This document shows, one piece after another, positions 2,900-41,447 of a DNA stretch of 42,336 nt. The stretch's first letter is position 1, and every line of letters starts with the position of its first letter. The notes under the pieces were generated by a model, which worked only from the letters and a program-made list of their open reading frames with translations, had not been told where the DNA came from and made no database searches. The DNA comes from a virus. Where the stretch lies: positions 1-42,336 of the IMG/VR virus record IMGVR_UViG_3300025162_000090; one strand, 5' to 3'. Position numbers and translations under genes: made by a program.

Positions 2900-2905
2900 G
2901 CGAAA

Positions 2906-2998: not shown

Positions 2999-3013
2999 TT
3001 TTATGAGGCCAAC

Positions 3014-4102: not shown

Positions 4103-4103
4103 A

Positions 4104-4505: not shown

Positions 4506-4509
4506 AATA

Positions 4510-4533: not shown

Positions 4534-4561
4534 CAATTCTGCTGTTAGAACACTTGCTATT

Positions 4562-7232: not shown

Positions 7233-7462
7233 TTGAGTACCTCGCCTAATTTCGATTTGAGATCCTTGAGCTGCTTCTTGCTCTCGTCGTCAGGAAACAT
7301 GCCATCGATGGTGCTTTCATAAACGGTGCGTTCAAACTCAGTATGGCGCAGCTGCCGGATAACCGCCTTGCAAAAGCCGTTTTCCATCCGCCAGAGGGCG
7401 AACAGGATGATGTTGGCAATCAACAATATAACCACAGCTATGGTCAGGTAAATCATATCCAC
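7229..7462 (-). CDS. Small single-helix membrane protein
   Basis: 77 residues. There is a hydrophobic helix at about 3-23 (MIYLTIAVVILLIANIILFAL), then a charged, helical cytoplasmic tail ending KDLKSKLGEVLK. It overlaps its neighbours on both sides (4 bases downstream, 10 upstream), so it is translationally coupled within the glycosyltransferase genes. It could anchor the enzymes at the membrane, but no function can be read from the sequence. Confidence 0.7.
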   Translation of the reverse strand: MDMIYLTIAVVILLIANIILFALWRMENGFCKAVIRQLRHTEFERTVYESTIDGMFPDDESKKQLKDLKSKLGEVLK

Positions 7463-8430
7463 TTCTCCATTTCCGCCAGGATCGGCGCTGTAAACTTATC
7501 CCAGTTGTAGGTCTTCTCGACATTGGCCCGCGCCCCTGTCGCCCATTTCAAGGGGCAGGTATCGGCGGTTTGTTTTTGCAATTCATCCAGCACGTGGAGG
7601 TTGTAGTCCATTTTTTGTAGGTCCATGCGGATGGACACCACGTCATTACCATAGCCGGATTCTTTGGTCGCCAAAACAGGCAGGCCAATAGCCGCCATTT
7701 CGATGATCGTGGTCGGATTGGCATCGGACACGCTCATGTTGATGAAGTAATCGCAGTGCTCGACAATATAAGGCGCCCATTCTGGCACGTTGATAAATCC
7801 GAGGTGCACCAGGTCGATGTCACGGAAAAGCGATAGGTCTATATCGCCGGCATAATACAGCGTCCATCCACTGCGGCGCACCAGCTCGGCCAGCTGAGCC
7901 GGGCCTTTCTCGGGAGAGTTGCGACCCATGTAAAACAGGGCGCGCTTACCGGGGCCGTTGAACTTCTCGCGTAAAAACGGGAAGCGTGACACGTCGATGG
8001 CATTATTGAGCTGGACCATCTTTGATGACCACATCTGGAATGGCGAGTGGTTAATCGTGTTCATCCAATAATCCCCGGTGATGGCGAAGTAGCGGTCACA
8101 GCTCATCACCAGCTCATTGAACGGCAGGTTTATTTCTGGCATGCCGTGGTGAAAGGGAAAGATCAGGTAGCGAGCGGCAGGTTTGGGTCTACCATAAATA
8201 TGCTGTCTGAATATCCACTGGATGATGGTATTTTCGTTCCAGTGCGGATGACCGAGAACAATATCATCCGGGCCAACATCGAAAGGGCCGCTGTACTGCC
8301 AGTCGTAATAGCGCATGTTGAAGTATGGTTCCAGCGCGCGGTAGACGTGGTTCGTGATCGTCGCAGGGGTCTGAATGGCTCCGTCGTTGAGTGGGTCGCC
8401 GGCATAAACAAAGTGAAGGGTGCGTTTCAT
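7453..8430 (-). CDS. GT4-like glycosyltransferase
   Basis: 325 residues. The C-domain shows the GT-B signature RALFYMGRNSPEKGPAQLAE, then GWTLYYAGDIDLS, WAPYIVEHCDYFINMSVSDA and NPTTIIEMAAIGLPVLATKE. That last block holds the donor-binding Glu. The N-domain has a DDIVLGHPHW strand and an FPFHHGMPEINLP loop. It should be soluble. It is the third GT4-type gene of the phage, coupled to its neighbours by short overlaps. Confidence 0.83.
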   Translation of the reverse strand: MKRTLHFVYAGDPLNDGAIQTPATITNHVYRALEPYFNMRYYDWQYSGPFDVGPDDIVLGHPHWNENTIIQWIFRQHIYGRPKPAARYLIFPFHHGMPEINLPFNELVMSCDRYFAITGDYWMNTINHSPFQMWSSKMVQLNNAIDVSRFPFLREKFNGPGKRALFYMGRNSPEKGPAQLAELVRRSGWTLYYAGDIDLSLFRDIDLVHLGFINVPEWAPYIVEHCDYFINMSVSDANPTTIIEMAAIGLPVLATKESGYGNDVVSIRMDLQKMDYNLHVLDELQKQTADTCPLKWATGARANVEKTYNWDKFTAPILAEMEKWI

Positions 8431-8939
8431 TTCTTGCCTGCCTTCTTCGAGCCCATAGAGTAACCATAAAACTTACCCTGTTTGATTTTCTTGAGCATCT
8501 TTTTACTTTGTTTGGGAAAAGTAAAATCGAACCGTGCGCCCGGCATGGGCGTCATGCGGTCGATAATGCTAACGGCGGTCATGTCCCCTATTCCAATGTC
8601 TACCCCAATATGATAACAACGAGGTTTTGTCTGATCTTTCGACTTGCGAAACAGGCGCGTGAATGAGGATATTTTCACCGCGGTGGGATCGTATGACCAT
8701 CTTTGTGGATCGATCGTTTTGTATTTCAACCAGCCTTCGCGCACATCAATTATCTCAACCCGGTCACGCTTTACCCACGGATGAGCCGTCTTGCGATCCT
8801 CCCAGACTTCGCCAACGTGGGGCAGATAACGTTTGAAAAGATCACGGATACTTTCCACCACGCCAACCACGAGAACGAGCAATAGCCACAGCGCTATCCA
8901 TATAAATACAGCCTCAACTACTACTTCAAGTGTGCTCAT
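8427..8939 (-). CDS. Membrane-anchored protein of unknown function
   Basis: 170 residues. There is one strongly hydrophobic N-terminal helix (about 5-29, VVVEAVFIWIALWLLLVLVVGVV with flanking residues). A basic soluble domain follows (about 40-150) with mixed beta strands (GWLKYKTIDPQRWSYDPTAVKI, YHIGVDIGIGDMTAVSII), ending in a Lys-rich tail (GSKKAGKK). The GVDIGIGDMTAVSII segment resembles an actin/RNase H-like beta strand, but that alone is not enough to assign a fold. It overlaps both neighbours. Confidence 0.65.
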   Translation of the reverse strand: MSTLEVVVEAVFIWIALWLLLVLVVGVVESIRDLFKRYLPHVGEVWEDRKTAHPWVKRDRVEIIDVREGWLKYKTIDPQRWSYDPTAVKISSFTRLFRKSKDQTKPRCYHIGVDIGIGDMTAVSIIDRMTPMPGARFDFTFPKQSKKMLKKIKQGKFYGYSMGSKKAGKK

Positions 8940-9703
8940 TACTTCCGCCTCCCGATGAAATAGATATCCTGGCGCTCGGCCTGCTCATACAGACCATAGA
9001 AGTCATGGACATAAACCGGATTGAAGTTTTCCATGAGGAAATCGACGACAAACTGATTTGACACGCGCAGGGGGTGGCCGGCGTCGTACTCATTGAGCGC
9101 CTTATCCTGAATGGCCTCGATGGGCCAGACGGGCTCAGAGAATACGAATGTGCCGCCCGGTGCGGTTATTTCGAGGATCTTGTCAAAGACTTTCTGAGCA
9201 TCCTGGCAGTGCTCAAGCACGTTGATCATGATGACCAGGTCGAATGTGTAAACAGCCTGATAATCCTCAATGGAGGATACCGTGAAGGTCGTTCGGGTCA
9301 TTTGGGCTATATCTGGATAGGCACAGCCTGGCAGGTCGATATATTTTGCCAGCAGGGGATCAAGGAGGTGCAGCTCGCGCGCCTTGATCAGCGGCAGGAT
9401 CAACCGCGCGTTGGTAAACATGCCGCATCCCAGCTCGATGGCACAGTTGAAGGATTTACCCTTCAGCGCCTCGTACCCGTCAAAGCGCTCCATGTGATCA
9501 ACGTTGCGGTCATCGCTCGCGCCTGCGTTCAGCTCTGACCAGGTGCGGCGTTCGTAACGTTGAGCCTGCTGCCAGCGCTCCGGGGAGACGGCAGTGATTC
9601 CGTTCTCTCCCAGGTACTGCAGGTCGGATGTGACCGATAGGCGATCCTCTGCCTGTGTGCCGATATATTTCTGTGTTGTTTCATCGATAAAGTATTTATC
9701 CAT
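8939..9703 (-). CDS. Class I SAM-dependent methyltransferase
   Basis: 254 residues from the ATG at 9703, chosen because GAGGAAAAG lies just before it; the longer frame back to 9733 lacks this. Motif I is CAIELGCGMFTNARLIL, followed by LHLLDPLLAKY for the acidic SAM-ribose contact. The motif IV region is VYTFDLVIMINVLEHCQDAQKVFDKI, and GGTFVFSEPVWPIE is the strand-5 region. These are the marks of the UbiE/glycan O-methyltransferase type superfamily. With glycosyltransferases directly downstream, methylation of a sugar (for example a chain-end cap) is the likely role, by inference. Confidence 0.85.
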   Translation of the reverse strand: MDKYFIDETTQKYIGTQAEDRLSVTSDLQYLGENGITAVSPERWQQAQRYERRTWSELNAGASDDRNVDHMERFDGYEALKGKSFNCAIELGCGMFTNARLILPLIKARELHLLDPLLAKYIDLPGCAYPDIAQMTRTTFTVSSIEDYQAVYTFDLVIMINVLEHCQDAQKVFDKILEITAPGGTFVFSEPVWPIEAIQDKALNEYDAGHPLRVSNQFVVDFLMENFNPVYVHDFYGLYEQAERQDIYFIGRRK

Positions 9704-9710
9704 CTTTTCC

Positions 9711-9920
9711 TCACATCTTGAGCCTGGCATCATCGGACGTCAGGATGGCGACGATCAGCTCCTTCGCCGACTTCTCCCCAAAGGGGCCGCGGCAGTCGCA
9801 GCGCAACTTCTCCACCCACCTGTCCAGGGTTTCCTTTTGCGCGCTCGTGCACTGCTCATAAAACCAGTCGTAAGCGGCGATGCGCTGCTCGGGTAGTTCC
9901 TTGATGGCCTGAGAGGTCAT
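9711..9920 (-). CDS. Small hypothetical protein
   Basis: 69 residues, helical, with two Cys (CDC) near residue 41 and many charged residues. It starts inside an ATGA overlap with the 29-codon membrane peptide upstream, which supports real translation. Not recognised. Confidence 0.65.
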   Translation of the reverse strand: MTSQAIKELPEQRIAAYDWFYEQCTSAQKETLDRWVEKLRCDCRGPFGEKSAKELIVAILTSDDARLKM

Positions 9921-10006
9921 ATCGCCACTCGCAGCAGTTTGATAATGATTAGCGCGGTAAACACGCCGACCATCAGAACAACAATTACGGTTTCCATTTT
10001 CTTCAT
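9917..10006 (-). CDS. 29-residue single-helix membrane micropeptide
   Basis: MKKMETVIVVLMVGVFTALI continues into a short hydrophobic run and a basic end. It is one transmembrane helix with two Lys in front and Lys/Arg after. Both ends are ATGA overlaps: its ATG uses the stop of the gene at 10003, and its stop overlaps the ATG of the gene ending at 9920. This perfect double coupling is strong evidence that it is translated. Function unknown. Confidence 0.7.
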   Translation of the reverse strand: MKKMETVIVVLMVGVFTALIIIKLLRVAI

Positions 10007-10545
10007 GATTTGATCCTTTCGAGACAGCTTTGCATATCGGCTAATTCGGTGTTCCACCACGGATCGAGTTCGAGCTTGGCGGCTTTATTGATGGCGCGCT
10101 GGAGGCTGGCAACGGCTTTGGCGCGCTGTTCTTTGGGGGTCAGGGGCGGCTTTGGCTTATCGTCGTTTTTCTTTTTATCGCACCTTTTCTTTGTGTGTAC
10201 CTCGCCGCATTCTGGACAAGCAGGGGCAAGCGCGAGCGGAGATAGACCGAGAGCCTTGCGATGCTTCTGGTTTTTCACTGGCCTGCCATGAGCGTAAGCG
10301 TCGAGGGTTCCACACGAAATTCCGTACTTTTTTGCCATCTCGCGCCAGGATAACCGGATATGTTCATTTGTCAAAAACGCCGAAATATCAACGTCAGTTT
10401 TGTAGGTCGGTTCGTTGTCGGGGGGCAAGGTGTACACTTTTTGTACACCCCATTTAGGGGCTTTTGTCTGCGCGTATTGGGTGAAGATCAATTCTGCTTT
10501 CAAGACGGAAATCAGTTCACCAGTGAAAGGTTCCTTAATAATCAT
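10003..10545 (-). CDS. HTH and zinc-ribbon protein
   Basis: 180 residues from ATG 10545. The central region (about 55-85) reads LSWREMAKKYGISCGTLDAYAHGRPV, a helix-turn-helix in which the protein would recognise DNA by its second helix. This is followed by a zinc knuckle-like CPECGEVHTKKRC and a Lys/Pro-rich hinge, then a helical C-terminal segment. A DNA-binding regulatory or structural role in the early operon is inferred. It overlaps the VRR-NUC gene by 11 bases. Confidence 0.65.
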   Translation of the reverse strand: MIIKEPFTGELISVLKAELIFTQYAQTKAPKWGVQKVYTLPPDNEPTYKTDVDISAFLTNEHIRLSWREMAKKYGISCGTLDAYAHGRPVKNQKHRKALGLSPLALAPACPECGEVHTKKRCDKKKNDDKPKPPLTPKEQRAKAVASLQRAINKAAKLELDPWWNTELADMQSCLERIKS

Positions 10546-10927
10546 TTTTCGCCTCGTCAATCGACAAGTATTTGCAAATAACGCTCTTGGCTTCCTCGAA
10601 AGACCAGCAGACATGAACGGCGTAATATTCCATTGTGAGTGCGTCAAGCCAAGCCTTCTGGTTCTCGGAGACTTTGCCGCCTTTGACTTTCATTTCGATA
10701 ATCAAGCCGTGATGGACGCCATTTGGAAAAGGCAGAAATATATCAGGTACGCCCGATTTCAAACCTTCGGCCTTATAGTACATTGCTGATCCGATTGACC
10801 GCTTACCAGCATTGGGGACGGCGAATAGCAATCTTAGTTCGGGGTGGTGATATTCCATCCTCGCGGCCCATGAAAACAAAGCGCATTGTTCGTCATGTTC
10901 GGTAGGTTTATTCATCGCTTTATTCAT
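10535..10927 (-). CDS. VRR-NUC domain nuclease
   Basis: 130 residues, the usual length of stand-alone phage VRR-NUC proteins. The PD-(D/E)XK core is visible: SGVPDIFLPFPNGVHHGLIIEMKVKGGK with D62, E78 and K80, followed by the helix SENQKAWLDAL. An upstream helix has NAGKRSIGSAMYYKAEGLKSG. Family members act as Holliday-junction or flap nucleases in phage DNA processing. The start overlaps the end of the phosphatase gene. A second in-frame ATG four codons later could also serve. Confidence 0.9.
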   Translation of the reverse strand: MNKAMNKPTEHDEQCALFSWAARMEYHHPELRLLFAVPNAGKRSIGSAMYYKAEGLKSGVPDIFLPFPNGVHHGLIIEMKVKGGKVSENQKAWLDALTMEYYAVHVCWSFEEAKSVICKYLSIDEAKNDY

Positions 10928-11516
10928 CGCGTTTCGCCTCCATCTTCTTTTTGTGCTCTTTCTGCTCGTCCTCTATCTGGTCGATGCGGCTTTCGGTGGA
11001 GCGTTTACTCTGCCAATAGCCGTTGCTATCCTGATAATGGCCTTTATGCTCATCCTGCTTTTTGTCGGTCATGAGTTCACCCCAGTTCTTTTCCCGCCGT
11101 GGAATACCTGACTGATGCAGCTTGTCCAATAACAGCTTGTAGCACCAGGGGTTAGGTATCTTCTTCTCGTAGAAGCGCACATTATCCCAGTAGAGATATT
11201 CTGATATTGCCGCGGCTACCCCGGCTGAGCGGCTCACGCCAGCTTCGCAGTGGATATAAATGTTGAATATCTTTTTGGGCATATCCCTGACAAATTCGAC
11301 AATCTTATCCGCATCGGCTTCGGTCATGGGGTTGAATGATTTCCCATCCAAAGTTGTTATGGTGGTGCAGATATCGTAGAAGGACAGGCGCAAAAGGTTA
11401 GTGGCTCTGATCTTCGCCGGGTCTGATTCCGGATCCGTGATGGAGATGACATAATCCAGGACAAGGAAGTGCATGCTCTCGGCCTCATCTCTTGAGAACG
11501 CATAAACGTAGCTCAT
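10920..11516 (-). CDS. Dual-specificity/tyrosine phosphatase-like protein
   Basis: 198 residues from ATG 11516, which overlaps the upstream stop (ATGA). The P-loop signature is IHCEAGVSRSAGVAAAI, with the CX5R motif C90 to R96 and the following Ser. Before it is a plausible general-acid loop (SFYDICTT, D48) in a small DSP-like core. Residues ~150-198 form a highly charged tail (KRSTESRIDQIEDEQKEHKK) not needed for catalysis. It would remove phosphate from proteins, or possibly from other phospho-substrates. Phage genomes with such DSP-like enzymes are known, but their targets are not. Confidence 0.85.
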   Translation of the reverse strand: MSYVYAFSRDEAESMHFLVLDYVISITDPESDPAKIRATNLLRLSFYDICTTITTLDGKSFNPMTEADADKIVEFVRDMPKKIFNIYIHCEAGVSRSAGVAAAISEYLYWDNVRFYEKKIPNPWCYKLLLDKLHQSGIPRREKNWGELMTDKKQDEHKGHYQDSNGYWQSKRSTESRIDQIEDEQKEHKKKMEAKRDE

Positions 11517-11794
11517 GATTTCACCGTCACATGATCCTGCGGGCCTTCTTCGTACTTTCCGCAAGCCTGCCAACCTGCCCGCCAGTCTGTCGAAGCTCCA
11601 TGTGTCTGTTTGGTCAGTTCGCACTTGAACCAATACGACCCGGCACGAAAACGGACAAGATGAGTACACTTCTTACAGGTCTGTCCCTCGACCTTGCCGT
11701 GGATGTTATGCATCGCGCGGATACGGGCGGGTAACAATGGATCGTCGCTTTCGTGGGCTTTGACCCATTCGGGAAATAAGGTAACTTCGCTCAT
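11513..11794 (-). CDS. Small Cys-rich protein, CxxC type
   Basis: 93 residues with CKKCTHLVRFRAGSYWFKC and a later WQACGKY. Four Cys are spaced to bind one metal ion or cluster. It resembles the 63-residue protein ending at 12057 in layout (CxxC, C, W..C.A/F), so the two look like distant paralogues. Start and stop both overlap neighbours in ATGA form. Function unknown. Confidence 0.7.
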   Translation of the reverse strand: MSEVTLFPEWVKAHESDDPLLPARIRAMHNIHGKVEGQTCKKCTHLVRFRAGSYWFKCELTKQTHGASTDWRAGWQACGKYEEGPQDHVTVKS

Positions 11795-12060
11795 TTCATC
11801 GCCTCGTTTTCCATGCCGACAAGATTTATCAGGTAAACAATAATTTCCCTCGGATTAAATACAACGGTATCGTACCCATCGAATCCCCACAAAATTATTT
11901 TTCCCATCGGGCCTTTGCCGCCGGGAGCTAAAACCATTTTGCGGCGTTTGCTTCCAGAGTTCCCTTCGGGTATCTTCAGAATTACTCCGGGCGTATATCC
12001 GCTCTTGTCAGCTTCTTCGATGGCGGTCTTGCATTGTTCGAATAATTCAAGTAGCGTCAC
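11791..12060 (-). CDS. Small hypothetical protein, GTG start
   Basis: 89 residues if it begins at GTG 12060, which overlaps the upstream stop in a GTGA arrangement. The longer ATG-started frame would run through the upstream gene in another frame. It has a mixed fold with basic SGSKRRKMVLAPGGKG in the middle and hydrophobic strands near the end (REIIVYLINLVGM). Not recognised. Confidence 0.6.
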   Translation of the reverse strand: MTLLELFEQCKTAIEEADKSGYTPGVILKIPEGNSGSKRRKMVLAPGGKGPMGKIILWGFDGYDTVVFNPREIIVYLINLVGMENEAMK

Positions 12061-12248
12061 AATTTCACCTCGTCCTTTTTGAAAGGATCGTCTTTGACTT
12101 CGACGAATGCACCGCACCAATTCCCGGATGAAACAGTCTGCGCGGTCAACTCCATTTGCCAGCATTTGCCACGACTTCTATCTATCGCCTTGAAAAATGC
12201 GCATTCTGAGCATCGACCTTCGTAGTCAGGGTTCACTTTTGGGTTCAT
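12057..12248 (-). CDS. Small Cys-rich protein, CxxC type
   Basis: 63 residues from ATG 12248 (ATGA overlap with the preceding small gene). CSECAFFKAIDRSRGKCWQM and NWCGAF place four Cys for a zinc or iron site. It resembles the protein encoded at 11513-11794. Function unknown; possibly a nucleic-acid or protein adaptor. Confidence 0.7.
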   Translation of the reverse strand: MNPKVNPDYEGRCSECAFFKAIDRSRGKCWQMELTAQTVSSGNWCGAFVEVKDDPFKKDEVKL

Positions 12249-18259: not shown

Positions 18260-20485
18260 CTATGCGGTAGCGTTGGTGTAAGACAAAACATCAAACAGGG
18301 TCGGAACGTTTGAATTGAATTTTGCCTGGCGCAAATTACGAACGGCAATATCCCAGTATGATTTTTTTAGTTCAATGCCGATGAACTTGCGCCCCAGGCG
18401 GATGCTCTCATAGCCCTCTGATCCAATCCCGGCAAATGGGCTGAATACGGTTTCGCCTGGGTTTGACCACAATCTGACACAGCGCTCGATCGTTCCAAGC
18501 TGTAGCGGGCAAATATGCCGCTCATCGTTGGGGTCTCGCGCCGTGGTAAATTGCAGCGTGTCGCTCTCGCTGATACCGTACCAAATAGGCCGCGCTAACT
18601 GTATCCACTCGTTATTGTTCAAGTCGGGAATGATAGGCACCGCGTTATCGCCTGGTTTGCGGAATAACAAAATGATGTCAGATAAAGCGGGCCGCGACCA
18701 TGAGCTGTCTTTGTGCAGCTGTGCGAATAACAGCGCCTTTGACTTCGTGCGGATGGCTTGCGCTTGCGGGTCTTTGTCAATCACTACTTCGCCGTGCTGT
18801 ATCCATCCCGCGTCAATATACGCTTGAATGGTCTTCCCGCGAAAATCCTTCAACCCGATATAACCATCCCTGACCATCATTGCTGGAACCTGCGCCACAT
18901 GTACGGCGGTAATACGTCCCGGTTTGGTGATGCGCAATAGCTCAGCGATAATAAATGCGTACTGGTCAAAAAACTCTTTCTCGCCTTTGCTGTTGCCCAG
19001 GTCGCGTTCGGTTGGACTGTAGGTATACAGGCTCATAAACGGCGGGCTGTACACGCTGAAATCAATGGTCTCCGGGTCAATCTCTTTCATCCGTTCGCAA
19101 CTGTCGCCCAACATCATGCGAAAATCAGGCTCGATGACATCATCCGTCTGGTATTGAAAAGCGTCATTATCTTCGCCGCCGATCTCCGATTTTTCGAACT
19201 GCTGCACATTCTCAATCAATTTTGCGCTCATGGCATTGGCTTCCTTTTCCTTGCGTAAAACGTTCTGATAAATCTCGTCTTCGAATTCAGACAACACGAT
19301 TGATACATTCACCGGCTTTGTCTGTCCAAACCGATACGAGCGGCGGATACACTGGTAATAGGTCTCAAAACTGTCTGATAATCCAACGAACACCATCTCG
19401 TGTGCGTTCTGGAAGTTCATCCCAAACCCGGCTATTTTTGCTTTGGTGACGAGCACGCGGTATTTTCCATCCTGAAACGCCTCTAACATTTGGGCTTTTT
19501 CGTCTGGCGAATGAGATCCGTAAACGCTGACGCAATCGGGAATGAGGCGGGTCATCTCTTTTTGCTCATCATCCAGACCACACCACACAATCACCTGCTC
19601 GGTCGTTTTGTTGGCAATTTCAGCAGCCGCGGCGCATCGTTTTTCGATGGATGCACGGCGCACATCCAGCCTGCCTTTGATACCGTCCAATCCCAGGAAG
19701 AATAATTTATCGGATGGTCGGTAATCCTCGATCGTGACAAAAACCGGATTGATATCCAAACCTGGCAGAATATAACCATCATCGGGATAGCCCAGGTCTG
19801 ACGGTTTTCTGATCGACATACCCCAGCTGGCCATCCACTTGAAAAATGGTTCCTGTGCATGGCCCTTGAGGCGATAGCCGTTATCGTCATGGACAAAATA
19901 GGTCGCCAGTAAATCGGCGCGGCTCATAACGCCTAAAAACTCGGCATGGTTAGCGATCTCTGCAATGTCATTGGGCGCTGGTGTGGCTGTACAACATAAG
20001 CGAAACGGGACCACGTCACATAACTCTGTCAATTTCAGCCGCGTCTTTCCGTCCAAACTTTTGAGGATAGAGCTTTCATCGAGCACGACCGCGCCAATTT
20101 TAGAATAGTCAAAGTTCTCGGCCATCTCGTAATTGGTGATAAATATTGTCTGGTCGGGATGGTTGTCGATATCCGCCTGGTGGCGCACATAAATAACATC
20201 GATGTCAATTTTCTTTGCTTCCCTGACCGTTTGCCGCGTCACGGAAAGCGGCGCAATAATCAGCGCTCTGACACCCATCAACCGCGCCCACTCCAACTGC
20301 ATGAATGTTTTGCCCAATCCAGTATCTGCGAAAATGGCCGCGCGGCCCTTGAGAACTGACCATCGAATAAGATCCCGCTCATGCAGGAACATCTTCGGAT
20401 GAATGTCGCTAATCGCGCATTGTCTGCCATACGATTTTGATTTGATGCGCTTCGTTGATAAAAACTCTTGATAAGTTGTGTCCAT
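18260..20485 (-). CDS. SNF2-type helicase fused to DNA methyltransferase
   Basis: 741 residues with two enzymes. The N-terminal SF2 helicase has Walker A FADTGLGKT (about 52-60), motif II VVLDESS (133-139), motif III CTATPAPND, and motifs V-VI near 360-390 (GFGMNFQNA, QCIRRSYRFGQTKPVNV) as in SNF2/phage helicases. The C-terminal domain (about 455-735) is a beta-class amino-methyltransferase. It has FRMMLGDSCERMKEI, the catalytic SPPF at 480-483, and the SAM site FSPFAGIGSEG near 684-691, then GIELKKSYWDIA. SPP(Y/F) is usual for N4-cytosine and some N6-adenine enzymes. One chain may move along DNA and methylate it. Between the two is a helical linker. Confidence 0.9.
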   Translation of the reverse strand: MDTTYQEFLSTKRIKSKSYGRQCAISDIHPKMFLHERDLIRWSVLKGRAAIFADTGLGKTFMQLEWARLMGVRALIIAPLSVTRQTVREAKKIDIDVIYVRHQADIDNHPDQTIFITNYEMAENFDYSKIGAVVLDESSILKSLDGKTRLKLTELCDVVPFRLCCTATPAPNDIAEIANHAEFLGVMSRADLLATYFVHDDNGYRLKGHAQEPFFKWMASWGMSIRKPSDLGYPDDGYILPGLDINPVFVTIEDYRPSDKLFFLGLDGIKGRLDVRRASIEKRCAAAAEIANKTTEQVIVWCGLDDEQKEMTRLIPDCVSVYGSHSPDEKAQMLEAFQDGKYRVLVTKAKIAGFGMNFQNAHEMVFVGLSDSFETYYQCIRRSYRFGQTKPVNVSIVLSEFEDEIYQNVLRKEKEANAMSAKLIENVQQFEKSEIGGEDNDAFQYQTDDVIEPDFRMMLGDSCERMKEIDPETIDFSVYSPPFMSLYTYSPTERDLGNSKGEKEFFDQYAFIIAELLRITKPGRITAVHVAQVPAMMVRDGYIGLKDFRGKTIQAYIDAGWIQHGEVVIDKDPQAQAIRTKSKALLFAQLHKDSSWSRPALSDIILLFRKPGDNAVPIIPDLNNNEWIQLARPIWYGISESDTLQFTTARDPNDERHICPLQLGTIERCVRLWSNPGETVFSPFAGIGSEGYESIRLGRKFIGIELKKSYWDIAVRNLRQAKFNSNVPTLFDVLSYTNATA

Positions 20486-28958: not shown

Positions 28959-29053
28959 AAGGTAAAATTAGATGACTGTAAACAACGAAAATACCCGCCA
29001 CCTGTGCTGTTGTGCCGTGCGATTTACTAAAATATATCCACATACGGAGACTT

Positions 29054-29983
29054 ATGGAACACAACAGATCGGATCAACCACAGCAGATCATGATTACCGA
29101 TGGAATCAGCGCCTTTGTGCGGAGCCGGCGGGTCAAGGGCCTTTCGCCTCGCACGATAAGTTATTACACAGACGAACTCGGGCAGATGCGTCTATTCTGC
29201 GCCTCGATCAGCGTTTACGCTATAACAGATCTCACAGCAGATGTCCTTAGAAAATACATTGAGCACATGCAGGAGAAGCGCAATCGTAACGGTGTCCATG
29301 CCAATTACCGCGCCGTTCGTTCTTTCCTTCACTGGGTGGATATTGAGTATGAGCCGCAGTGGACAAACCCTCTCAGGCGCGTTCAAATTCCATCCCCATC
29401 AAAAGATGTTTTGCCACCGGTAAAATTCGACACGATCAAGGCCATGCTGGACGCGTGCGATACGAAGACGTTTATCGGTGTACGCGATTACGCCCTGATT
29501 TTATGCCTGCTCGATACGGGCGCCAGGGCCAATGAATTCTTGAGTGTCGACCTGGCGGACATGGACACGGCCACTGGATCAATCCAGCTACATAAGGAAA
29601 AAACTAAATCAGGCAAGGCGCGTACAACATTCTTAGGCCAGAAGGCGCGCATTGCACTCAAGCGGTACATCAGGACGCGCAAGGACAACTGCCCTGCCAT
29701 GTGGGTAACTGCGCACGGAACCAGGCTAAGATACCAGGGGATGCGTGCGATATTTGACAAGATCGCTGAGACAGCCGGCATTGAGAAGCCGAAGATACAT
29801 GCCTTCAGGCGAACCTTCGCCATTACCTTACTCAGAAAGCATGTTGACATTTACAGGATCATGGAGCTGGGAGGTTGGCAGTCGATGGAAGTCCTCAGGC
29901 GTTATTTGGCCGTGAATGAGGACGATGCGCGAGAAGCCCACGAGGAAGGTGGACCGGTCGATCTAGGATTGTTTGGCGAGTAG
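29054..29983 (+). CDS. int: Tyrosine recombinase integrase
   Basis: 309 residues from ATG 29054, chosen for the CGGAG site just before it. The N-terminal SAM-like domain (about 12-100) has RVKGLSPRTISYYTDELGQ. The catalytic domain has TGARANEFLSVDLADMD (first Arg), a Lys-bearing hairpin KTKSGKARTTFLG, and HAFRRTFAITLLRK (HxxR). Near the end, GGWQSMEVLRRYL carries the second His/Trp position and the nucleophile Tyr. It drives integration at the adjacent attP. The order int then terminator, with attP just upstream, is standard for tRNA-targeting phages. No excisionase was recognised nearby. Confidence 0.95.
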   Translation: MEHNRSDQPQQIMITDGISAFVRSRRVKGLSPRTISYYTDELGQMRLFCASISVYAITDLTADVLRKYIEHMQEKRNRNGVHANYRAVRSFLHWVDIEYEPQWTNPLRRVQIPSPSKDVLPPVKFDTIKAMLDACDTKTFIGVRDYALILCLLDTGARANEFLSVDLADMDTATGSIQLHKEKTKSGKARTTFLGQKARIALKRYIRTRKDNCPAMWVTAHGTRLRYQGMRAIFDKIAETAGIEKPKIHAFRRTFAITLLRKHVDIYRIMELGGWQSMEVLRRYLAVNEDDAREAHEEGGPVDLGLFGE

Positions 29984-30090: not shown

Positions 30091-30111
30091 GTGTGGAGTG
30101 CAATACCAACA

Positions 30112-30735
30112 ATGACCCTGACGAATAAAGAAAAAGCTTTCTGCAAGCGATACGTTCAAGATTTCAATGCTACCCAAACTTGTATTGATATGGGTTACTC
30201 TGAACGCTCGGCGCGTTCAATTGGTTCTGAAAACCTAACAAAACCTGACATTAAAGCAGAGATCGCGCGATTGGTCGATGAAAAGATCATGAAGCCGGAC
30301 GAGATCAATATGCGTCTGGCTGATATTGCAAGGGGAGATATCAAGGATCTGATGGACATTACTACAACCGGACACACGATCAACCTCATGACCACCGATG
30401 AAAATGGCAATAAGATCATTCGGCCTCAAACCAAACTGATCAAGAAAATCAAGAGCAAGGTAACAACTCACATTGGCAAAAAAGAGACTGATGAAGACGT
30501 GGAGATTATCGAAACAGAACTAGAACTCTACCCAGCTGATAGCTCACTTCAATTCCTGGCTAAACTCAGCGGCCTTGTCACAGAGAAGGTCGATGTCACT
30601 ACTAAGGGCGAAAAGGTAAATGCAGATGCAGATGACCGATATGATCGATCCATATCTACACTCGCGGATGCTCTCCGAGAAATCCTATCTGGAGAAGGTA
30701 CAGGAACGGACAGCGATCTGGCTGCCTCAAAGTAA
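30112..30735 (+). CDS. Terminase small subunit
   Basis: 207 residues from ATG 30112. The N-terminal LTNKEKAFCKRYVQDFNATQTCIDMGYSERSARSIGSENLTKPDIKAEI is the Terminase_2 DNA-binding HTH pattern. The middle (ARGDIKDLMDITTTG) and acidic tail follow the family layout. It recognises the packaging site and recruits the large subunit, whose gene overlaps its 3' end by 116 bases in another frame. Confidence 0.9.
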   Translation: MTLTNKEKAFCKRYVQDFNATQTCIDMGYSERSARSIGSENLTKPDIKAEIARLVDEKIMKPDEINMRLADIARGDIKDLMDITTTGHTINLMTTDENGNKIIRPQTKLIKKIKSKVTTHIGKKETDEDVEIIETELELYPADSSLQFLAKLSGLVTEKVDVTTKGEKVNADADDRYDRSISTLADALREILSGEGTGTDSDLAASK

Positions 30736-32173
30736 AACGCAGTGGAAGGCTCTCGTTTCGAGAGCTGACGAACTGTTCTTTGGGGGTGCAGCCGGCGGTG
30801 GAAAGTCCGATTTGATTATCGGCCTTTCTGTTTCCTGTCATCAGCACGCCGCGATATTTCGCCGAACCTACCCCAACTTGACAGAAATCATGCGCCGCGC
30901 GCGCGAGGTCATCGGAGATGGTGCACGTGAAAACAAGTCTGAGAAGATATGGACCTTTCCCGACGGTCACACATTGGAATTCGGAGCCGTGCAATACGAA
31001 GCAGATAAGTCCAACTGGCAGGGCCGACCACATGATCTGAAAGCATTTGATGAGCTACCCGAATTTTCCGAGAGTCAGTATGAATTTATCTGCGGCTGGA
31101 ACCGCTCCGTAGATCCTGGCCAGCGTGTGCGCGTGGTATCCACGGGCAACCCTCCCCTGGATGAAGCCGGTAGTTGGATCATTCGCCGTTGGGCAGCATG
31201 GCTTGACCCAAACCACCCCCATCCTGCTGCAGATGGTGAACTCAGATATTACGCCACGGTAGACGGAACCGAAGTTGAATGTAAAAACGGAGATCCTTTC
31301 GAGCACAAAGGTGAAATTATCTACCCGCGCTCACGCACATTTATCCGGTCCCTGCTGGCAGACAATCCCTTTTATGCCCATGACAGCCATTACATTTCCG
31401 TGCTACAGTCGCTGCCTGAGCCGATGCGCTCCCAACTGCTGCACGGCGATTTTGCCGCTTCCCAGGTGCCCAACCCCTGGCAGGTCATACCCTCCGAGTG
31501 GGTACGTGCGGCACAGCGGCGGTGGGAAGAACGCGAGAAGCCGGCCACGCCCATCACAGCGGTGGGTATCGACCCATCCCGCGGCGGCCACGACAAGACG
31601 GCCCTATCCGAACGCTATGATAACTACTTTGCCCAGCTGCACACCTGGGCAGGCGCCGAGGCTGTGGATGGGCCAGCCGTCGCCGGCCTGACCTTTGGCG
31701 TACTCCAGGATAAGCGCCCCGGATACATCAACGTGGACGTCGTCGGTATTGGATCGTCTGTTTATGATTCACTCAAGACAATGTACGAGGATGTTTTCCC
31801 CTTTAACGGTGCAGAGGGTTCCGAATATCGCGACCGGAGCGGCAAGCTAAAGATGCGCAACCGTAGAGCTGAAATGTACTGGCAGATGCGCGATGCGCTC
31901 GATCCTGAGCTTGGTGATGATCTCGCCTTACCTCCAGGTAATGAGCTTCTGGCTGATTTGTGCTCAGCGCGGTACGAAGTCTCCGCCGCCGGCGTGCTGA
32001 TTGAAGACAAAGAAAAAATCAAGGAGCGGATCGGTCGCAGCCCTGATATGGGAGAAGCGCTGATGATGTCGAACTTCTTTGACGTCAACCGCGGCCCCTC
32101 CCCTCAAGCCTGGATAGCCGCAATCAAAAAGCGGAACGAAGAACGGAAACAAGGAGTCAGACATGGGAATTAG
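30620..32173 (+). CDS. Terminase large subunit
   Basis: 517 residues. ATPase: FFGGAAGGGKSD (Walker A, about 53-64), LKAFDELPEF (Walker B with catalytic Glu), then VVSTGNPPLDEAG for coupling. Nuclease: TAVGIDPSRGGHDKTAL holds the first acidic residue, with VVGIGSSVYDSLK and later acidic residues. It pumps DNA into the prohead and cuts it. Starts at 30620, 30626 or 30632 are all in frame behind an AAAGG site; the choice is open. The 3' end overlaps the portal start by 11 bases. Confidence 0.95.
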   Translation: MQMQMTDMIDPYLHSRMLSEKSYLEKVQERTAIWLPQSKTQWKALVSRADELFFGGAAGGGKSDLIIGLSVSCHQHAAIFRRTYPNLTEIMRRAREVIGDGARENKSEKIWTFPDGHTLEFGAVQYEADKSNWQGRPHDLKAFDELPEFSESQYEFICGWNRSVDPGQRVRVVSTGNPPLDEAGSWIIRRWAAWLDPNHPHPAADGELRYYATVDGTEVECKNGDPFEHKGEIIYPRSRTFIRSLLADNPFYAHDSHYISVLQSLPEPMRSQLLHGDFAASQVPNPWQVIPSEWVRAAQRRWEEREKPATPITAVGIDPSRGGHDKTALSERYDNYFAQLHTWAGAEAVDGPAVAGLTFGVLQDKRPGYINVDVVGIGSSVYDSLKTMYEDVFPFNGAEGSEYRDRSGKLKMRNRRAEMYWQMRDALDPELGDDLALPPGNELLADLCSARYEVSAAGVLIEDKEKIKERIGRSPDMGEALMMSNFFDVNRGPSPQAWIAAIKKRNEERKQGVRHGN

Positions 32174-35100
32174 AAACGCAGTCAAGGGATTTATGACCGG
32201 GCTTGTCAATAACGGCACATCGCCCGTTGCTCAATCCGCACACGATATACGGGTCATTAAGCCGGGAGACACACCAGGGATAGACAGCTTTCCCAAGCGC
32301 TATACCAATACCTGGATGGGACCAGGGCGACCGCCGATGTCCGCGGAGGATAAAAAGTATGATGCCATTCGCAGCGCGGAGCCCACCGAGCCGCGCGCAT
32401 TCCAGTACATCCCCAACGTCAACACGACGATGGTGCCGCGCGCATCTTACAATCGCATGCTGTTTGCCGACCTGTACATGTTCGCTACCACCGTGCCGGA
32501 GATACCGATGTGCATCGACCTGATCATTGATGAGATGTGCGCCTTCGAGCTGACCATCAAGGACACGCGCGGCAATGTGGTGCACGGCAGTCCTTACCAG
32601 TGGATGATTGACAGCCCAGATGGGTACAATGCACATGATACCTGGTTGTCGCTGTTCATGTATAACAAGCTGATGTACGATGCAGCCTGCTCCTACCTGC
32701 GGCGCAATATGAGCGGCAAGATCGTTGCCTCGCGTCCCGTGGATGGGTCGACCATCTTTGTGATGATCGATGACCGCGGCAATCCTCCCGAGCCTCCCAC
32801 GCCAGCTTTCCAGCAGTACCTTTGGGGCACACCGCGCACGCTGCATACTACCAAAGAACTTTGGTACAAGCCTTCCAAGCGTGACACACAGTCGCCGTAT
32901 GGATACACTGCCATCGAGAAGTCCATCGAGGCAGTGACACTACTCAAAAACCTGTGGGGATACGAAGGGGCGAAATACATCAGCGGTAACTTCCCTGAGA
33001 TGTTTATGGCCCTGCCCGAATCCTTTGGCAAGGGCGACAAGACCGAAGCCATCCTTGAATTTGAAGATACCTACAACGACAGGATGATCGGCGGCGCGCA
33101 GGAACGCGCGGGCCGGTTGCGCATGGTGCCATTCGGTACGCAGGTGTTGGTTACCAAAGAAATCACCTTCAACCAGGGATCATACGACGCCGCGGTAAAC
33201 ATCGTTCGTCAGAATTTCGGCATTGTGCAATCTGAAGTCGGAGAAGCTCCAGGAGAGGGTCTGGGCGGCAAGGGCTACCAGGATGTGATGACCAGCAGCT
33301 TTTATCGCCGTGGCCTGCGTCCCAACTTGCGTTATGTAGCCAGTCACTTCAACGACATTATCAAGCTCAATGGCGACAGCGACAAATACGTTACCTCATA
33401 TGAATTCCCCAAGACATCCATCGACCCAGCCGAAGAGGAAGGGCGCATCATCGCCCGCTTCGTGCAGGGCGTGTCCACCCGCGATGAAACCCGCCAGGAT
33501 CTGGGCAAGAAGCCGCTCGGCGGCGAGCAGGGCAATTATATTGTCACGCCTGGTAGTAAGGGCGCAGACGATGGCACGATGGGCGGTCTGGGTATCAATA
33601 CATCCGCGCTCATCCCCGTAAAGAAGATGATCAAGGTCAAGGCGGTTGATCCTTTGCAGAAATCGCTGCCCGGATTACTGGACACCGATGCAATCACCCT
33701 GGAACAGGCGCAAACCATCGCCAAGAAGTATAAGCTGCCCGTAGAGGATTACGCCCAGTTTACCGCCGGGCTGAATGAAGAGATGGAGCACGCAGAGACG
33801 GTCAATTATGACGTCAAGACCATCGCCTGCATTGTCATGGACCACCTGGCCGAAGATGACCGCTATTACAGCAAACTGGATGCAGTCATGCAGAAATTCC
33901 AGTCGCTGAGGAAGTTCATCGGCGTGGATCCTGGCGACGATCAATACTACGGCGCGGCGATCAGCGCGGATGCGGCCATCTCCATGCCCCATGAAGGCGC
34001 CAACGAGAGCCTGATTGTGTCCATCGGTGGCAACGGTATGCCCTCCCGCCCTGCTGTGTGGAAGCCGGCATCTGGCGAGAAGCTCTCCCTCAAGACGTGG
34101 GTGGGCGGCGATCTTTACCGCCGCGCTGAAGCGGCTTATCTGCTCGATCGAGAATTAGCCACCGATCAGGATAGTTACCTGGTCCCGGTCGCATATGTTG
34201 CTGAGCACGACGATGAAACAGGCAGCATCCAGATGTATGTCACCGGGCGCAAGGGGCGCAAGAAAGTTGATACCTACAAAGAAAAGTGGATTGAACGCGC
34301 CGCTGTGCTCGATTATGTCATGGGGCAGATGGACCGCGACCGCAATAACTGGCTGACCAACTCCTACGATGAGAAGCGGCCTGTGCTGATCGATAACGAC
34401 TGCTCCTTCCCGGTTGATCCTGATCAAAAGGTCCATTCCCAGTTCGTAGACGGGATGCGCGGCAAGAAGTTGAGCAACGCGGTGCTGGATAGTCTCTTCC
34501 TCCTGTTGGGCAACGTGGCTATCTGGGACGACCTGCAGCAGGTTCTGGGCGATGCGAAGGCAGTCGAGAATGCCAAAGCGCGCGCACAGAAAATCTATGA
34601 CGAGAAGATGCTCCCGGCAATGTGGGTCAAGGTCAAGCGCTCCGGGGATATCGATGTTGGCCACCATGTAGAAGTCGTGAACAATGTCCCGGTCAAGTTG
34701 GACAAGGCCGAGTCTGTTCCTTTCCGGTCTTCATCCAGCCGGCTGTCAGATTACATCAAGGGCGTGGTGCAGAAAAACCACGAGCTGGAGCTGGAAAAGA
34801 TAGACCTTCTCAAAGCACAGGAGACAGCGCCAACCTTACCTGATGCGCAGGTGTCAAATCCGTCTCAATCGGCCATTTCAGACCTGGTCAAAGAAATCAG
34901 CAGACAGAATGACCTGCGCGAGCTGGAGAAGGCTTCATCCAGTGGCATCACCAAATATCAAGGAGAAAACGATATGCAAAGAGTAGTGCTGGAATTCCCG
35001 GCTCCGATCGTAAACGTACCCCAGACGATCGTCAATGTTCCCGAGCAACCGGCTCCGGTCGTAAACGTAGCAGCTCCCATCATCAACTTCCCGGAACAAA

Positions 35101-35339
35101 AAGCGCCGATTGTCAACGTGCCGGCTCCGATCGTGAATGTGGCCGCGCCCATTGTCAACATCCCGGAAACGGTCGTCAACGTCGAGGCTCCGGTGGTAAA
35201 TGTCGCCGCACCTGATATCAAGGTCGATGCACCCGTGACAGTCAATATGCCCGAAGGAAACAAGAAGGGCAAGGCCAAGAAGATGGTTATCACCCGGGAT
35301 ATTGACGGGAAAATAAGTGGAATGGAGGAAGAAAGATAA
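32163..35339 (+). CDS. Portal protein fused to PI3/4-kinase-like domain and VNV-repeat tail
   Basis: 1058 residues, about twice a normal portal. Residues ~1-475 are the portal: LYMFATTVPEIPMCIDLIIDEM, GYTAIEKSIEAV, EVGEAPGEGLGGKGY. Residues ~500-600 carry a helical segment with IACIVMDHLAEDDRYYSKLD, DUF5661-like. Residues ~615-760 look like a PI3/4-kinase-type domain. AVWKPASGEK would be the ATP-Lys strand; LYRRAEAAYLLDREL and LVPVAYV follow, then the catalytic loop GQMDRDRNNW (about 722-730) and metal loop PVLIDNDCSFP (about 738-748). After a coiled coil, residues ~938-1040 are PxVNV repeats ending in a basic tail. An internal start (34974) can make the repeat tail alone. The kinase would be carried in the virion. 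Confidence 0.85.
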   Translation: MGIRNAVKGFMTGLVNNGTSPVAQSAHDIRVIKPGDTPGIDSFPKRYTNTWMGPGRPPMSAEDKKYDAIRSAEPTEPRAFQYIPNVNTTMVPRASYNRMLFADLYMFATTVPEIPMCIDLIIDEMCAFELTIKDTRGNVVHGSPYQWMIDSPDGYNAHDTWLSLFMYNKLMYDAACSYLRRNMSGKIVASRPVDGSTIFVMIDDRGNPPEPPTPAFQQYLWGTPRTLHTTKELWYKPSKRDTQSPYGYTAIEKSIEAVTLLKNLWGYEGAKYISGNFPEMFMALPESFGKGDKTEAILEFEDTYNDRMIGGAQERAGRLRMVPFGTQVLVTKEITFNQGSYDAAVNIVRQNFGIVQSEVGEAPGEGLGGKGYQDVMTSSFYRRGLRPNLRYVASHFNDIIKLNGDSDKYVTSYEFPKTSIDPAEEEGRIIARFVQGVSTRDETRQDLGKKPLGGEQGNYIVTPGSKGADDGTMGGLGINTSALIPVKKMIKVKAVDPLQKSLPGLLDTDAITLEQAQTIAKKYKLPVEDYAQFTAGLNEEMEHAETVNYDVKTIACIVMDHLAEDDRYYSKLDAVMQKFQSLRKFIGVDPGDDQYYGAAISADAAISMPHEGANESLIVSIGGNGMPSRPAVWKPASGEKLSLKTWVGGDLYRRAEAAYLLDRELATDQDSYLVPVAYVAEHDDETGSIQMYVTGRKGRKKVDTYKEKWIERAAVLDYVMGQMDRDRNNWLTNSYDEKRPVLIDNDCSFPVDPDQKVHSQFVDGMRGKKLSNAVLDSLFLLLGNVAIWDDLQQVLGDAKAVENAKARAQKIYDEKMLPAMWVKVKRSGDIDVGHHVEVVNNVPVKLDKAESVPFRSSSSRLSDYIKGVVQKNHELELEKIDLLKAQETAPTLPDAQVSNPSQSAISDLVKEISRQNDLRELEKASSSGITKYQGENDMQRVVLEFPAPIVNVPQTIVNVPEQPAPVVNVAAPIINFPEQKAPIVNVPAPIVNVAAPIVNIPETVVNVEAPVVNVAAPDIKVDAPVTVNMPEGNKKGKAKKMVITRDIDGKISGMEEER
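34974..35339 (+). CDS. Internal-start product: VNV-repeat protein
   Basis: In frame with the portal gene, AGGAG (34961-34965) is followed 8 bases later by ATG 34974, giving a 121-residue protein MQRVVLEFPAPIVNVPQTIV and so on. The repeats, (A/P)P(I/V)(V/I)NV, recur about ten times in a likely beta-solenoid, ending GNKKGKAKKMVITRDIDG. Similar repeats follow portals in many phages as separate small proteins. The ribosome site suggests both a fused and a free form are made. Confidence 0.65.
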   Translation: MQRVVLEFPAPIVNVPQTIVNVPEQPAPVVNVAAPIINFPEQKAPIVNVPAPIVNVAAPIVNIPETVVNVEAPVVNVAAPDIKVDAPVTVNMPEGNKKGKAKKMVITRDIDGKISGMEEER

Positions 35340-37135: not shown

Positions 37136-37663
37136 ATGCCAAATATTTATTTACGACAAGGCACAGCGGCCAACGCGGATGTTACCCTGAGAAATACCAC
37201 TCAGGTTGATGCGTCGGCGGCGTTGAGCGTTACCCTGGACAGCATGATGTTATCCAGCGCGGCGCAGGAGCTTACCAAAGCGCAGGCGTCCATCACCCTG
37301 GCCGATGTCACTCTTTCGGCTACCGCAAAAGAAATATCCCATGCTCAGGCGTCCATCACCCTGGCCGATGTTTCACTGGTATCTACGGCAAAAGAAAAGT
37401 TACAGGCTCAAGCCAGCATCGCCCTGGGAGATATCAGCCTCGCGTCAACCGTCACGAGCAAGATCAAAGCCCAGGCGAGCATTACGCTGGGCGACGTTTC
37501 CCTGACAGCCACAGCGACCAACGGCTCAACGCCTACCCCCACACCTATGCCCGAACCAACGCCCCAACAAAGGCGCTTTGTCGCCGCCCAGGCGCAAAAA
37601 GCCCAGGATGAATTCGAGATGATGCTGATTATGATGGCTTACGAAGAAATGGAAAACAGATGA
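37136..37663 (+). CDS. Repeat protein with 21-residue units
   Basis: 175 residues. Four clear units of the type AQASITLADVTLSATAKEIS begin at codons 37280, 37343, 37406 and 37469, exact 63-base spacing, with a degenerate one before. A Thr/Pro hinge (NGSTPTPTPMPEPTPQQ) leads to a helical end (FVAAQAQKAQDEFEMMLIMMAYEEM). Probably a beta-repeat virion protein; the Thr/Pro hinge matches the style of the lipoprotein. It overlaps the next gene by 4 bases. Confidence 0.7.
   Translation: MPNIYLRQGTAANADVTLRNTTQVDASAALSVTLDSMMLSSAAQELTKAQASITLADVTLSATAKEISHAQASITLADVSLVSTAKEKLQAQASIALGDISLASTVTSKIKAQASITLGDVSLTATATNGSTPTPTPMPEPTPQQRRFVAAQAQKAQDEFEMMLIMMAYEEMENR
37280..37531 (+). repeat. 63-bp tandem repeat, four units
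   Basis: Repeat starts at 37280, 37343, 37406 and 37469. The second and third units still share long identical runs (the first two match over about 25 bases), so expansion was recent. Confidence 0.85.
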
Positions 37664-38436
37664 CACCTCAAACCGTCCACCTCCGCAGATTAGCCCGCGA
37701 GCAGGCGCGCATCGAAGCAGAACTTCAATCCGTGGCGCTCGCTGAATTACAGCGAGCCTGGCGCGACGTGCGCATGCGGCTCAAGCAACTGGATGATCAG
37801 CGGCCCAAGACAGGACAGAAAACACGCCTGCGAAAGGAAGCTTATTTTCACGCGGATCTGTGGTCGACGGTGACAGAACGGCTCAAGTCGCGGCTGCTGG
37901 AAAAGATCAAAGGCGGCGCATTGTCTCTTGTGGCCATCAATAACGAATATCTGCTTTCGGTCATGGGCGACGGTATCGAACTGGACACAGAAGCCTTTGC
38001 CAACACGTACAGTGAATTGTTAGGTCAGAGAATTACCAAGACCACCGATGTAATCCGCAGCTCGACTTCACGAAAGATCGTATCCTGGTACAACACGCCA
38101 GGGCGCACGCTGGGAGATATTACCGGGGAGTTATCCGCTGACTTTGGTGACACACGCGCTGAGCGCATCGCGCGCACTGAGATCGCCTACCTTGACGATA
38201 ATGTGCAAAACGAGGTCGCTGAGCAATTAGGCATCAAAGCATGGTGGTGGAGTTCCAAGCAGGATTCCGAGGTTTGTACCCGTAAGCTGATCGGCCCGGA
38301 TGGCCAGGAGTACAAAGGCTGCCGAGAATTGCACGGCAAACGTTTTACGATGGACCAGCCAGGCCCACCTAAAGGAAGCCACCCAAATTGCCGGTGCGAT
38401 AAAATTTTGATCCTCGAATCCAGGGACAAACCATGA
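37660..38436 (+). CDS. Mu gpF-like minor head morphogenesis protein
   Basis: 258 residues. The C-terminal Phage_Mu_F domain is clear: ERIARTEIAYLDDNVQNEVAEQLGIKAWWWSSKQDSEVCTRKLIGPDG, then FTMDQPGPPKGSHPNCRCDKILI with the conserved HPNCRC. The N-terminus is helical. Such proteins bind the portal and help assemble the prohead. Order portal - gpF-like is standard, though several virion genes intervene here. Confidence 0.9.
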   Translation: MTPQTVHLRRLAREQARIEAELQSVALAELQRAWRDVRMRLKQLDDQRPKTGQKTRLRKEAYFHADLWSTVTERLKSRLLEKIKGGALSLVAINNEYLLSVMGDGIELDTEAFANTYSELLGQRITKTTDVIRSSTSRKIVSWYNTPGRTLGDITGELSADFGDTRAERIARTEIAYLDDNVQNEVAEQLGIKAWWWSSKQDSEVCTRKLIGPDGQEYKGCRELHGKRFTMDQPGPPKGSHPNCRCDKILILESRDKP

Positions 38437-40244: not shown

Positions 40245-41447
40245 ATGACTGATAATAAAAAATCACCCTGGCCAATGCAAACATTTATCCCCTTGAAAAA
40301 GGTGGAGGTGGACGGCGACAAAGTCACCCTGTGGGGTTATGGCGCCATCGAGGAACCGGATCATGCCGGCGAAATAATGGATTACCTTACCTCGAAGCCG
40401 AAGTTTGTCGGATGGTCAAACAAAATATTCAAAGCGACAGGTGGAATTTCCAAAGGCAACGTGCGCGCCCAACATGGCGATATCGTCGCCGGCCACCTGA
40501 TCGAATTCCGCCCTGACGACGATAACAAAGGCTTCTGGGTTGGCGCTGAAATTGACGATGCCAACGAGAAGGAAAAGGTCAAGAAGGGCAATTACACCGG
40601 ATTCTCCGTGGGCGGCTCTTACGCCAACCGCTGGCTGGACGCTACTCACCCCGGCTATTTCCGCTACACCGCCAACCCGGTCGAGATTTCCATCGTGGAT
40701 AGTCCCTGCGCCCCTTCGGCCACCTTCCAGCTGACCAAAGCGGACGGAGCTGAACCGGTCGACATGCAATTCGAGCCGGCTAACAAGGGCGGTGAAATTC
40801 GACTGGGCGAAACCAGCACCGAACTCTACACGGCGATTAGCGTACGGTTGAACGAAGTCTATCCGGCAACACACACCAACACGAACACGGGTCTTGTCGC
40901 AGTCTCGCTCTATTCGAATTACTACATCGACACCTTCGACGGCAAACAGGTCGTCTGTAACGCCGAAGGAAAAAAGTACGTCATTACCTACTCGAAAGAC
41001 GAAAGCGGCGTGATCCAGTTCGGCGACCCCATCGAAGTGACCGAGCACAGGGTATACACCCCGGTCCCGGCTTCTACCGATCTGGCCAAAGCTGTACCAG
41101 CCGCGCCAATCTCCACCTCTGAAATCAGGCTGGATGCTAACAAGCAATCCAACCCTGACCCCATCTCGATGGAACAGATGCCCATGCCGAATATCACCCT
41201 GGAGCTGACGCCGGGAACCACGCCGGCAACTGAAACCCTCGAAACGCACGCGGTCAATACCCGCGATTTGAGCGCTGACTTTGAAGCGATGCTGCCCAAA
41301 ATGGGCGCGTTGATCAAAGCCGAAGTAAAGGCGGCTGTCAGTGAACTGATGGCCGAACTCAAGAAGGCAGACACATCCCTGGATAACCAATCCCATCGGA
41401 TGATCCCCGTCAAAAAACCAAATCGTTTGAAAGTGAACAAGGAGTAA
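40245..41447 (+). CDS. Prohead protease fused to scaffold-like region
   Basis: 400 residues. N-terminal ~170 residues resemble the XkdF-like head maturation protease: KVTLWGYGAIEEPDHAGEIMDY, GNVRAQHGDIVAGHLIEFRPDDDNKGFWVGAEIDD, GNYTGFSVGGSYANRW, and NPVEISIVDSPCAPSATFQLTKA. His in RAQHGDI and Ser in FSVGG are candidate catalytic residues. The rest is a beta-containing insert followed by a long helical/acidic region (DFEAMLPKMGALIKAEVKAAVSELMAELKKAD) fit for a scaffold. The gene precedes the capsid as usual, and has its own promoter and attenuator. Confidence 0.82.
   Translation: MTDNKKSPWPMQTFIPLKKVEVDGDKVTLWGYGAIEEPDHAGEIMDYLTSKPKFVGWSNKIFKATGGISKGNVRAQHGDIVAGHLIEFRPDDDNKGFWVGAEIDDANEKEKVKKGNYTGFSVGGSYANRWLDATHPGYFRYTANPVEISIVDSPCAPSATFQLTKADGAEPVDMQFEPANKGGEIRLGETSTELYTAISVRLNEVYPATHTNTNTGLVAVSLYSNYYIDTFDGKQVVCNAEGKKYVITYSKDESGVIQFGDPIEVTEHRVYTPVPASTDLAKAVPAAPISTSEIRLDANKQSNPDPISMEQMPMPNITLELTPGTTPATETLETHAVNTRDLSADFEAMLPKMGALIKAEVKAAVSELMAELKKADTSLDNQSHRMIPVKKPNRLKVNKE

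Follow-up and report, generated by a model that had tools for sequence, protein, structure and literature searches.

The portal gene of an uncultured phage, contained in a stretch of 42,336 nt (the whole of which is called the window here), continues beyond a complete portal into a predicted PI3/4-kinase-like domain at aa ~585–820, which confirms what an earlier note on this DNA had described. Judged by its carriers in viral contigs, the predicted kinase recurs as a module on portals and MuF head proteins and is not peculiar to the portal of the window. We put the probability at about 0.6 that the portal-tethered kinase is a head-packaged effector that phosphorylates a host protein early in infection. 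The virion-borne enzymes that act on the host in earliest infection are known mainly as ADP-ribosyltransferases, nucleases and peptidases. A PI3/4K-like kinase recurring on portals and MuF proteins, as a module exchanged between phages, would add phosphorylation to this set. It has defined catalytic residues available to test, and bears on whether portal C-terminal extensions work inside the head or are delivered.

Genome Context of the Fusion Gene

The fusion gene (32163–35339, + strand) is a single unbroken ORF of 1058 aa that begins 11 nt within the 3′ end of the large terminase gene. The two terminase genes lie upstream, encoding the small subunit (30091–30735, +; PF03592, E = 1.3e-24) and the large subunit (30620–32173, +; phrog_979, E = 8e-40). 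Downstream are genes for a virion structural protein (phrog_3758), a MuF-like minor head protein (37660–38436, +; phrog_324, E = 1e-12; TIGR01641, E = 2.5e-7, below the cut-off of that family), a head-morphogenesis protein and a probable prohead protease (40245–41447, +; phrog_80, E = 1.2e-5; PF14550, E = 8e-4). The phage also encodes an integrase (29012–29983). The sole genome match pointing to a host was a contig in an Anaerolineales MAG, which is a binning clue and not proof.

A second assembly (L072, 99.6% DNA identity) carries the same fused ORF, and three diverged relatives (L047, L074 and L077) retain the domain order at 44–48% overall identity, so the fusion is not a product of assembly, and a frameshift or assembly artefact is ruled out for the ORF of the window.

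Several other genes of the window were noted. At 10920–11669 (−) is a gene for a dual-specificity phosphatase-like protein with the motif HCEAGVSRSAG (PF00782, E = 3.4e-7, just under the cut-off); this phage may code for a protein phosphatase as well as for a kinase. The haloarchaeal tailed virus HSTV-2 has an annotated dual specificity phosphatase alongside a kinase. An SNF2/DEAD-type helicase and an N6/N4 DNA methylase are joined in one chain at 18260–20485 (−), and the region 3014–9733 holds several glycosyltransferase-like genes and a methyltransferase gene (8939–9733).

Domain Organisation of the Fusion Protein

The portal domain occupies aa 67–476 (32361–33590, +), the span of a local portal HMM match, and is matched by phrog_2662 over aa 59–474 (E = 1.8e-33). 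In an AlphaFold2 (AF2) model of aa 1–870, Foldseek aligned this part with the solved portals of phage 812, HK97 and GTA. Both the fold and the position behind the large terminase identify a portal, complete as the earlier note had read it. In the same model the protein falls into separate parts: portal, disordered linker, DUF5661 helices and kinase. The linker, predicted to be flexible, comprises aa 461–508 (33543–33686, +) and has a pLDDT of about 25–34, while the DUF5661 helical part at aa 516–577 (33708–33893, +) has a pLDDT of 76–89 and matches PF18905 above the Pfam cut-off (E = 7.5e-11), bearing out the helical region previously assigned there. Next is the PI3/4-kinase-like domain, placed at aa 585–820 (33915–34622, +) by a viral profile, AF2 and Foldseek. 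Nearer the C-terminus, a repetitive VNVP/VNVA tail (aa 946–1032; 34998–35258, +) can be read from the sequence.

Fold and Family of the Kinase Domain

On its own, the window protein scores 19–22 bits against PF00454 (aa 703–754, E = 1.4e-3), under the cut-off of 27.1, and PHROGs and NCBIfam return no kinase family for it. An alignment (A3) was made of 16 natural viral relatives found by probe searches of viral contigs. The first probe (A2) consisted of the real sequence with three synthetic motif-alternative rows and served only to recruit candidates; alignments A3, A4 and A5 contain natural sequences only. The A3 profile matches aa 609–819 of the window protein with an E-value of 2.6e-68, the window being itself a member of A3, and in the PDB it finds PI4K-IIbeta (2e-15), PI4K-IIalpha (4e-14), FAM20C (5e-6) and Vps34 (3e-5). 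All 16 A3 members match PF00454 at E ≤ 1 (best 2.6e-13), and its cut-off is exceeded by each of the 19 other kinase ORFs scanned outside the clade of the window.

The AF2 model of the kinase domain (pLDDT 85.3, pTM 0.85) has the predicted fold of the PI3/4-kinase superfamily, including C-lobe helices after the metal loop. Its top solved match by Foldseek is PI4K-IIbeta (E = 1.7e-6, probability 1.00, TM 0.48 by query length), with Vps34 next. Structure prediction with a fold search had been suggested in the earlier note as a check, and it returned a kinase.

Other kinase families fit the window protein poorly. The FAM20C family (PF06702) gives 12–14.4 bits against a cut-off of 26.8, and neither HipA_C nor HipA_2 is among the window's own matches; HipA_C is matched weakly by four of the 16 relatives (best 0.0017). 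The kinase region has no match in the 50,697 phage records of INPHARED even at E ≤ 10, and only chance-level matches among plasmids.

Catalytic Residues

The residues of the superfamily active site are present: the ATP-binding Lys K634 in the motif AVWKP (codon 34062–34064, +), the Asp and Asn of the catalytic DRxxxN motif in the loop D724-R725-D726-R727-N728-N729 (34332–34349, +), which is directly followed by W730, and the metal-binding Asp of the loop D744-N745-D746 (34392–34400, +), which follows I743. The Lys and the motifs DRDRNNW and IDND had been recognised before, with the metal Asp numbered D743; it is D744.

K634, D724, R725, N729 and D744 are among the invariant columns of A3, and all 57 domains that can be aligned retain them, a count biased by the recruitment of most loci through patterns spanning the catalytic loop. 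The sample comprises 58 distinct domains from viral contigs, from which L016, misaligned by an insertion, was left out of the motif counts. All five residues are also kept in nine loci without the loop pattern (L074, L080, L084, L086, L087, L088, L090, L092 and L093), which were recruited through an N-lobe pattern. The catalytic Asp and Asn are thus retained in relatives, as would be expected were the initial assignment right.

The window departs from the majority at two positions. Residue 726, a His in 43 of the 57 domains, is Asp (DRH to DRD), and residue 746, a Gly in 51 of them, is likewise Asp (IDNG to IDND), where most relatives have IDNG or IDHG. Synonymous sites are near saturation between the window and its nearest relatives, and no weight is placed on the dN/dS values.

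Distribution among Head Proteins

A search of viral contigs for the same fusion recovered 19 distinct portal-kinase ORFs with the window-type portal, the window included, two loci (L084 and L090) sharing one portal. The nearest group consists of the window, L047, L074 and L077, and portal, DUF5661 part and kinase are common to all four. Portals of the PF04860 type are one family of carriers. The kinase also occurs on lambda-type portals (L013, L039), Mu-type portals (L035, L048), a PF04860 portal-MuF fusion (L038) and a dozen MuF proteins (L015, L021, L040, L053, L055, L060, L062 and others), and is found in one chain with ART-PolyVal (L050) or with an inorganic pyrophosphatase (L064). Altogether, 36 of the 58 distinct domains are fused to a portal or MuF protein and eight more lie within 2.4 kb of one, in a sample partly recruited with the portal-fused clade; without that scan, 24 of 44 are fused and six of 44 nearby. 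L086 was not counted as a portal fusion. In a phylogenetic tree, where L086 wrongly bears the label of a portal fusion, the clade of the window (22 rows) is separate, with support of 100/100, and the other carriers fall elsewhere, which indicates repeated attachment of the kinase to portals, or its movement from one portal to another.

Five loci (L020, L042, L051, L064 and L066) have tandem kinase genes. Two cultured viruses are carriers: HSTV-2, in which the gene for gp16 is close to that of the major head protein, and Myxococcus phage Mx1, which has an annotated kinase (profile E = 3e-20). A weaker match (E = 8e-9) is to a minor capsid/ART protein of Mycobacterium prophages.

Some of these loci have unusual arrangements. 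Four tandem kinase-domain genes of about 500 aa each occupy 4870–11903 of L020, a 156-kb viral contig. Behind the portal-kinase fusion of L047, a gene at 6465–8930 encodes a second, diverged kinase-like domain (NRDRNPGNW...VDNG). The MuF match of the MuF-kinase protein of L015 (ORF 1175–4312) is split by a Hint/intein-like insertion at aa ~254–645. In L023, an ORF of more than 3000 aa (3085–12132) includes MuF and two kinase domains, and further stretches of it look by eye like ADP-ribosyltransferases and metallopeptidases.

Module Exchange and Rearrangement

By DNA, with 100% identity over more than 10 kb, L084 and L090 represent one phage, yet their kinase C-lobes differ. Divergence starts at the hinge, beyond which DNA identity per 60 nt is 43–75% (L084 5210–6273, L090 8330–8741). 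The C-lobe has evidently been replaced through recombination. Directly behind the kinase gene, L084 contains additional DNA whose minus strand has an HNH-endonuclease-like ORF, and co-conversion by a homing endonuclease is one possible cause of the swap. A diversity-generating retroelement was considered and rejected, as synonymous sites differ (pS 0.41) and all substitution types are present.

Other relatives differ in how the parts are joined, and gain or lose additional domains at this site, a 2H phosphoesterase among them. L010 and L032 share 91–93% DNA identity and differ by about 1.2 kb that separates kinase from MuF in L032; L010 lacks this DNA, so its portal, kinase and MuF form one chain. 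Portal and kinase are consecutive overlapping genes in L079. A 2H phosphoesterase sits between DUF5661 and the kinase in L027, and in L028 a 2H domain is divided over two overlapping frames, likely through a frameshift or assembly artefact.

Possible Roles of the Portal-Tethered Kinase

Portal C-termini face into the capsid. The portal C-terminus would therefore hold a kinase with a complete active site, on a flexible linker and the DUF5661 part, inside the head, so that each particle would contain roughly twelve kinase domains next to its packaged DNA. The kinase would be released or exposed at infection, and its target would be a host protein, a lipid or small molecule being less likely. Location inside the head, catalysis, substrate and delivery are all steps that we infer. 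Unrelated head proteins act as carriers, the substrate lobe is exchanged, and 2H and ART domains keep it company, all of which favours a packaged effector; the occurrence of the kinase on the portal or a neighbouring head protein in many unrelated phages likewise suggests that it is probably a packaged anti-host enzyme. The weakest step of the effector model is the exit of a portal-tethered domain from the head. No portal is known to be ejected, so the kinase domain would need to be released by cleavage, extend outwards or work within the particle. No site for such cleavage was seen in the fusion protein, and the kinase may instead have as its target whatever goes through the portal. A fuller picture is offered tentatively, as less likely than not: the portal ring of tailed phages would itself carry a kinase that can be exchanged, recombination swapping its substrate lobe, and the dozen or so kinase domains at the DNA gateway would phosphorylate host targets during genome entry.

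The kinase might instead serve assembly or packaging and not be aimed at the host. It would then phosphorylate the scaffold, the capsid, the protease or the terminase while the head matures, or regulate DNA exit. Its inclusion in the portal, within a head gene cluster that also encodes MuF and probably a prohead protease, would suit such a role, as would a domain order maintained at the identity noted above. We regard it as unlikely all the same. A housekeeping step of assembly would not predict a C-lobe that is swapped between otherwise identical phages, attachment to unrelated portals and to MuF proteins, paralogues in tandem, or the company of 2H and ART effectors. Of the two roles that the earlier note offered, the packaged effector is favoured over the assembly enzyme by the modularity of the kinase and the exchange of its C-lobe.

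Somewhat less probable still is a pseudokinase, its fold kept for binding a partner or a nucleotide and its catalysis slight or absent in the branch of the window. The His of DRH is lost there and the position is variable (D, N, F, K, G, S or R): the three nearest relatives of the window have N, F or K in its place, and they share with the window D or E for the Gly after IDN. Activity of the window kinase, given its DRD, is possibly weak or lost. Against a pseudokinase, all five catalytic residues listed above are invariant, and type II PI4Ks, the closest enzymes by profile, have DRG and not DRH at the same position, so loss of the His does not of itself mean loss of activity.

The closest solved relatives by profile and fold, type II PI4K and Vps34, might suggest a true phosphoinositide kinase that works on a membrane lipid during DNA entry. 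This we consider very improbable. The profile that finds them extends to a protein kinase, FAM20C, and HipA is matched by some of its members; likeness to phosphoinositide kinases does not give the substrate. Chance similarity or misannotation, with no kinase present, could appeal to the single-sequence Pfam score and to the empty search of phage records, and is already refuted by the profile match at 2e-15, the agreement of AF2 with Foldseek and the motifs kept in all alignable domains.

Comparison with Known Systems

The viral domain resembles type II PI4Ks (PI4K2A and PI4K2B) in its N-lobe Lys, its DR...NW loop, its IDN metal loop followed by FP, and its overall predicted fold. It differs from them in an identity of only about 18%, in being much shorter and without the long eukaryotic inserts, and in its tether to a portal. 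The SCO1664 family of bacterial PI3/4K-like proteins (TIGR03843) is matched by 14 of the 16 members of the viral alignment (best 7.9e-20), whereas the window's own domain gives no match to it at E ≤ 0.01. HSTV-2 gp16 (BFVD L7TJZ0) has the same kinase domain (A3 profile, E = 2.5e-15) but, unlike that of the window, as a gene of its own with no fusion to the portal (gp8).

For the 2H, PBECR, Nudix and ART domains found on MuF proteins and portals, packaging and injection have been proposed (PMC5512222, PMC9503650). The window protein is like these polyvalent and portal-MuF enzymes in having an enzyme domain C-terminal to a head protein, an arrangement that is one mark of the polyvalent class, and 2H and ART are mixed with the kinase in its relatives. 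The kinases reported among polyvalent proteins belong to the Ser/Thr/Tyr superfamily and are without the C-terminal subdomain (PMC5512222), whereas the enzyme of the window is predicted to be PI3/4K-like, with modelled C-lobe helices after the metal loop.

MuF proteins of temperate phages bear toxin domains (PMC5576092), and the main text of that study does not contain the word "kinase". The likeness to these polymorphic toxins lies in an enzyme that varies at the C-terminus of a head protein associated with the portal, and some relatives of the window are MuF-kinase proteins. The window protein itself falls outside that group, its carrier being the portal and its MuF a separate gene. In BFVD, some proteins of uncultured phages already bear names such as PI3K/PI4K or head morphogenesis. 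A full-text literature search, mostly of papers outside subscription, turned up no such kinase on a portal or MuF protein, in agreement with the earlier note, which knew of no described portal with this function. From these comparisons, the PI3/4K-like kinase appears to be a new enzyme type in a known class of enzymes built into head proteins.
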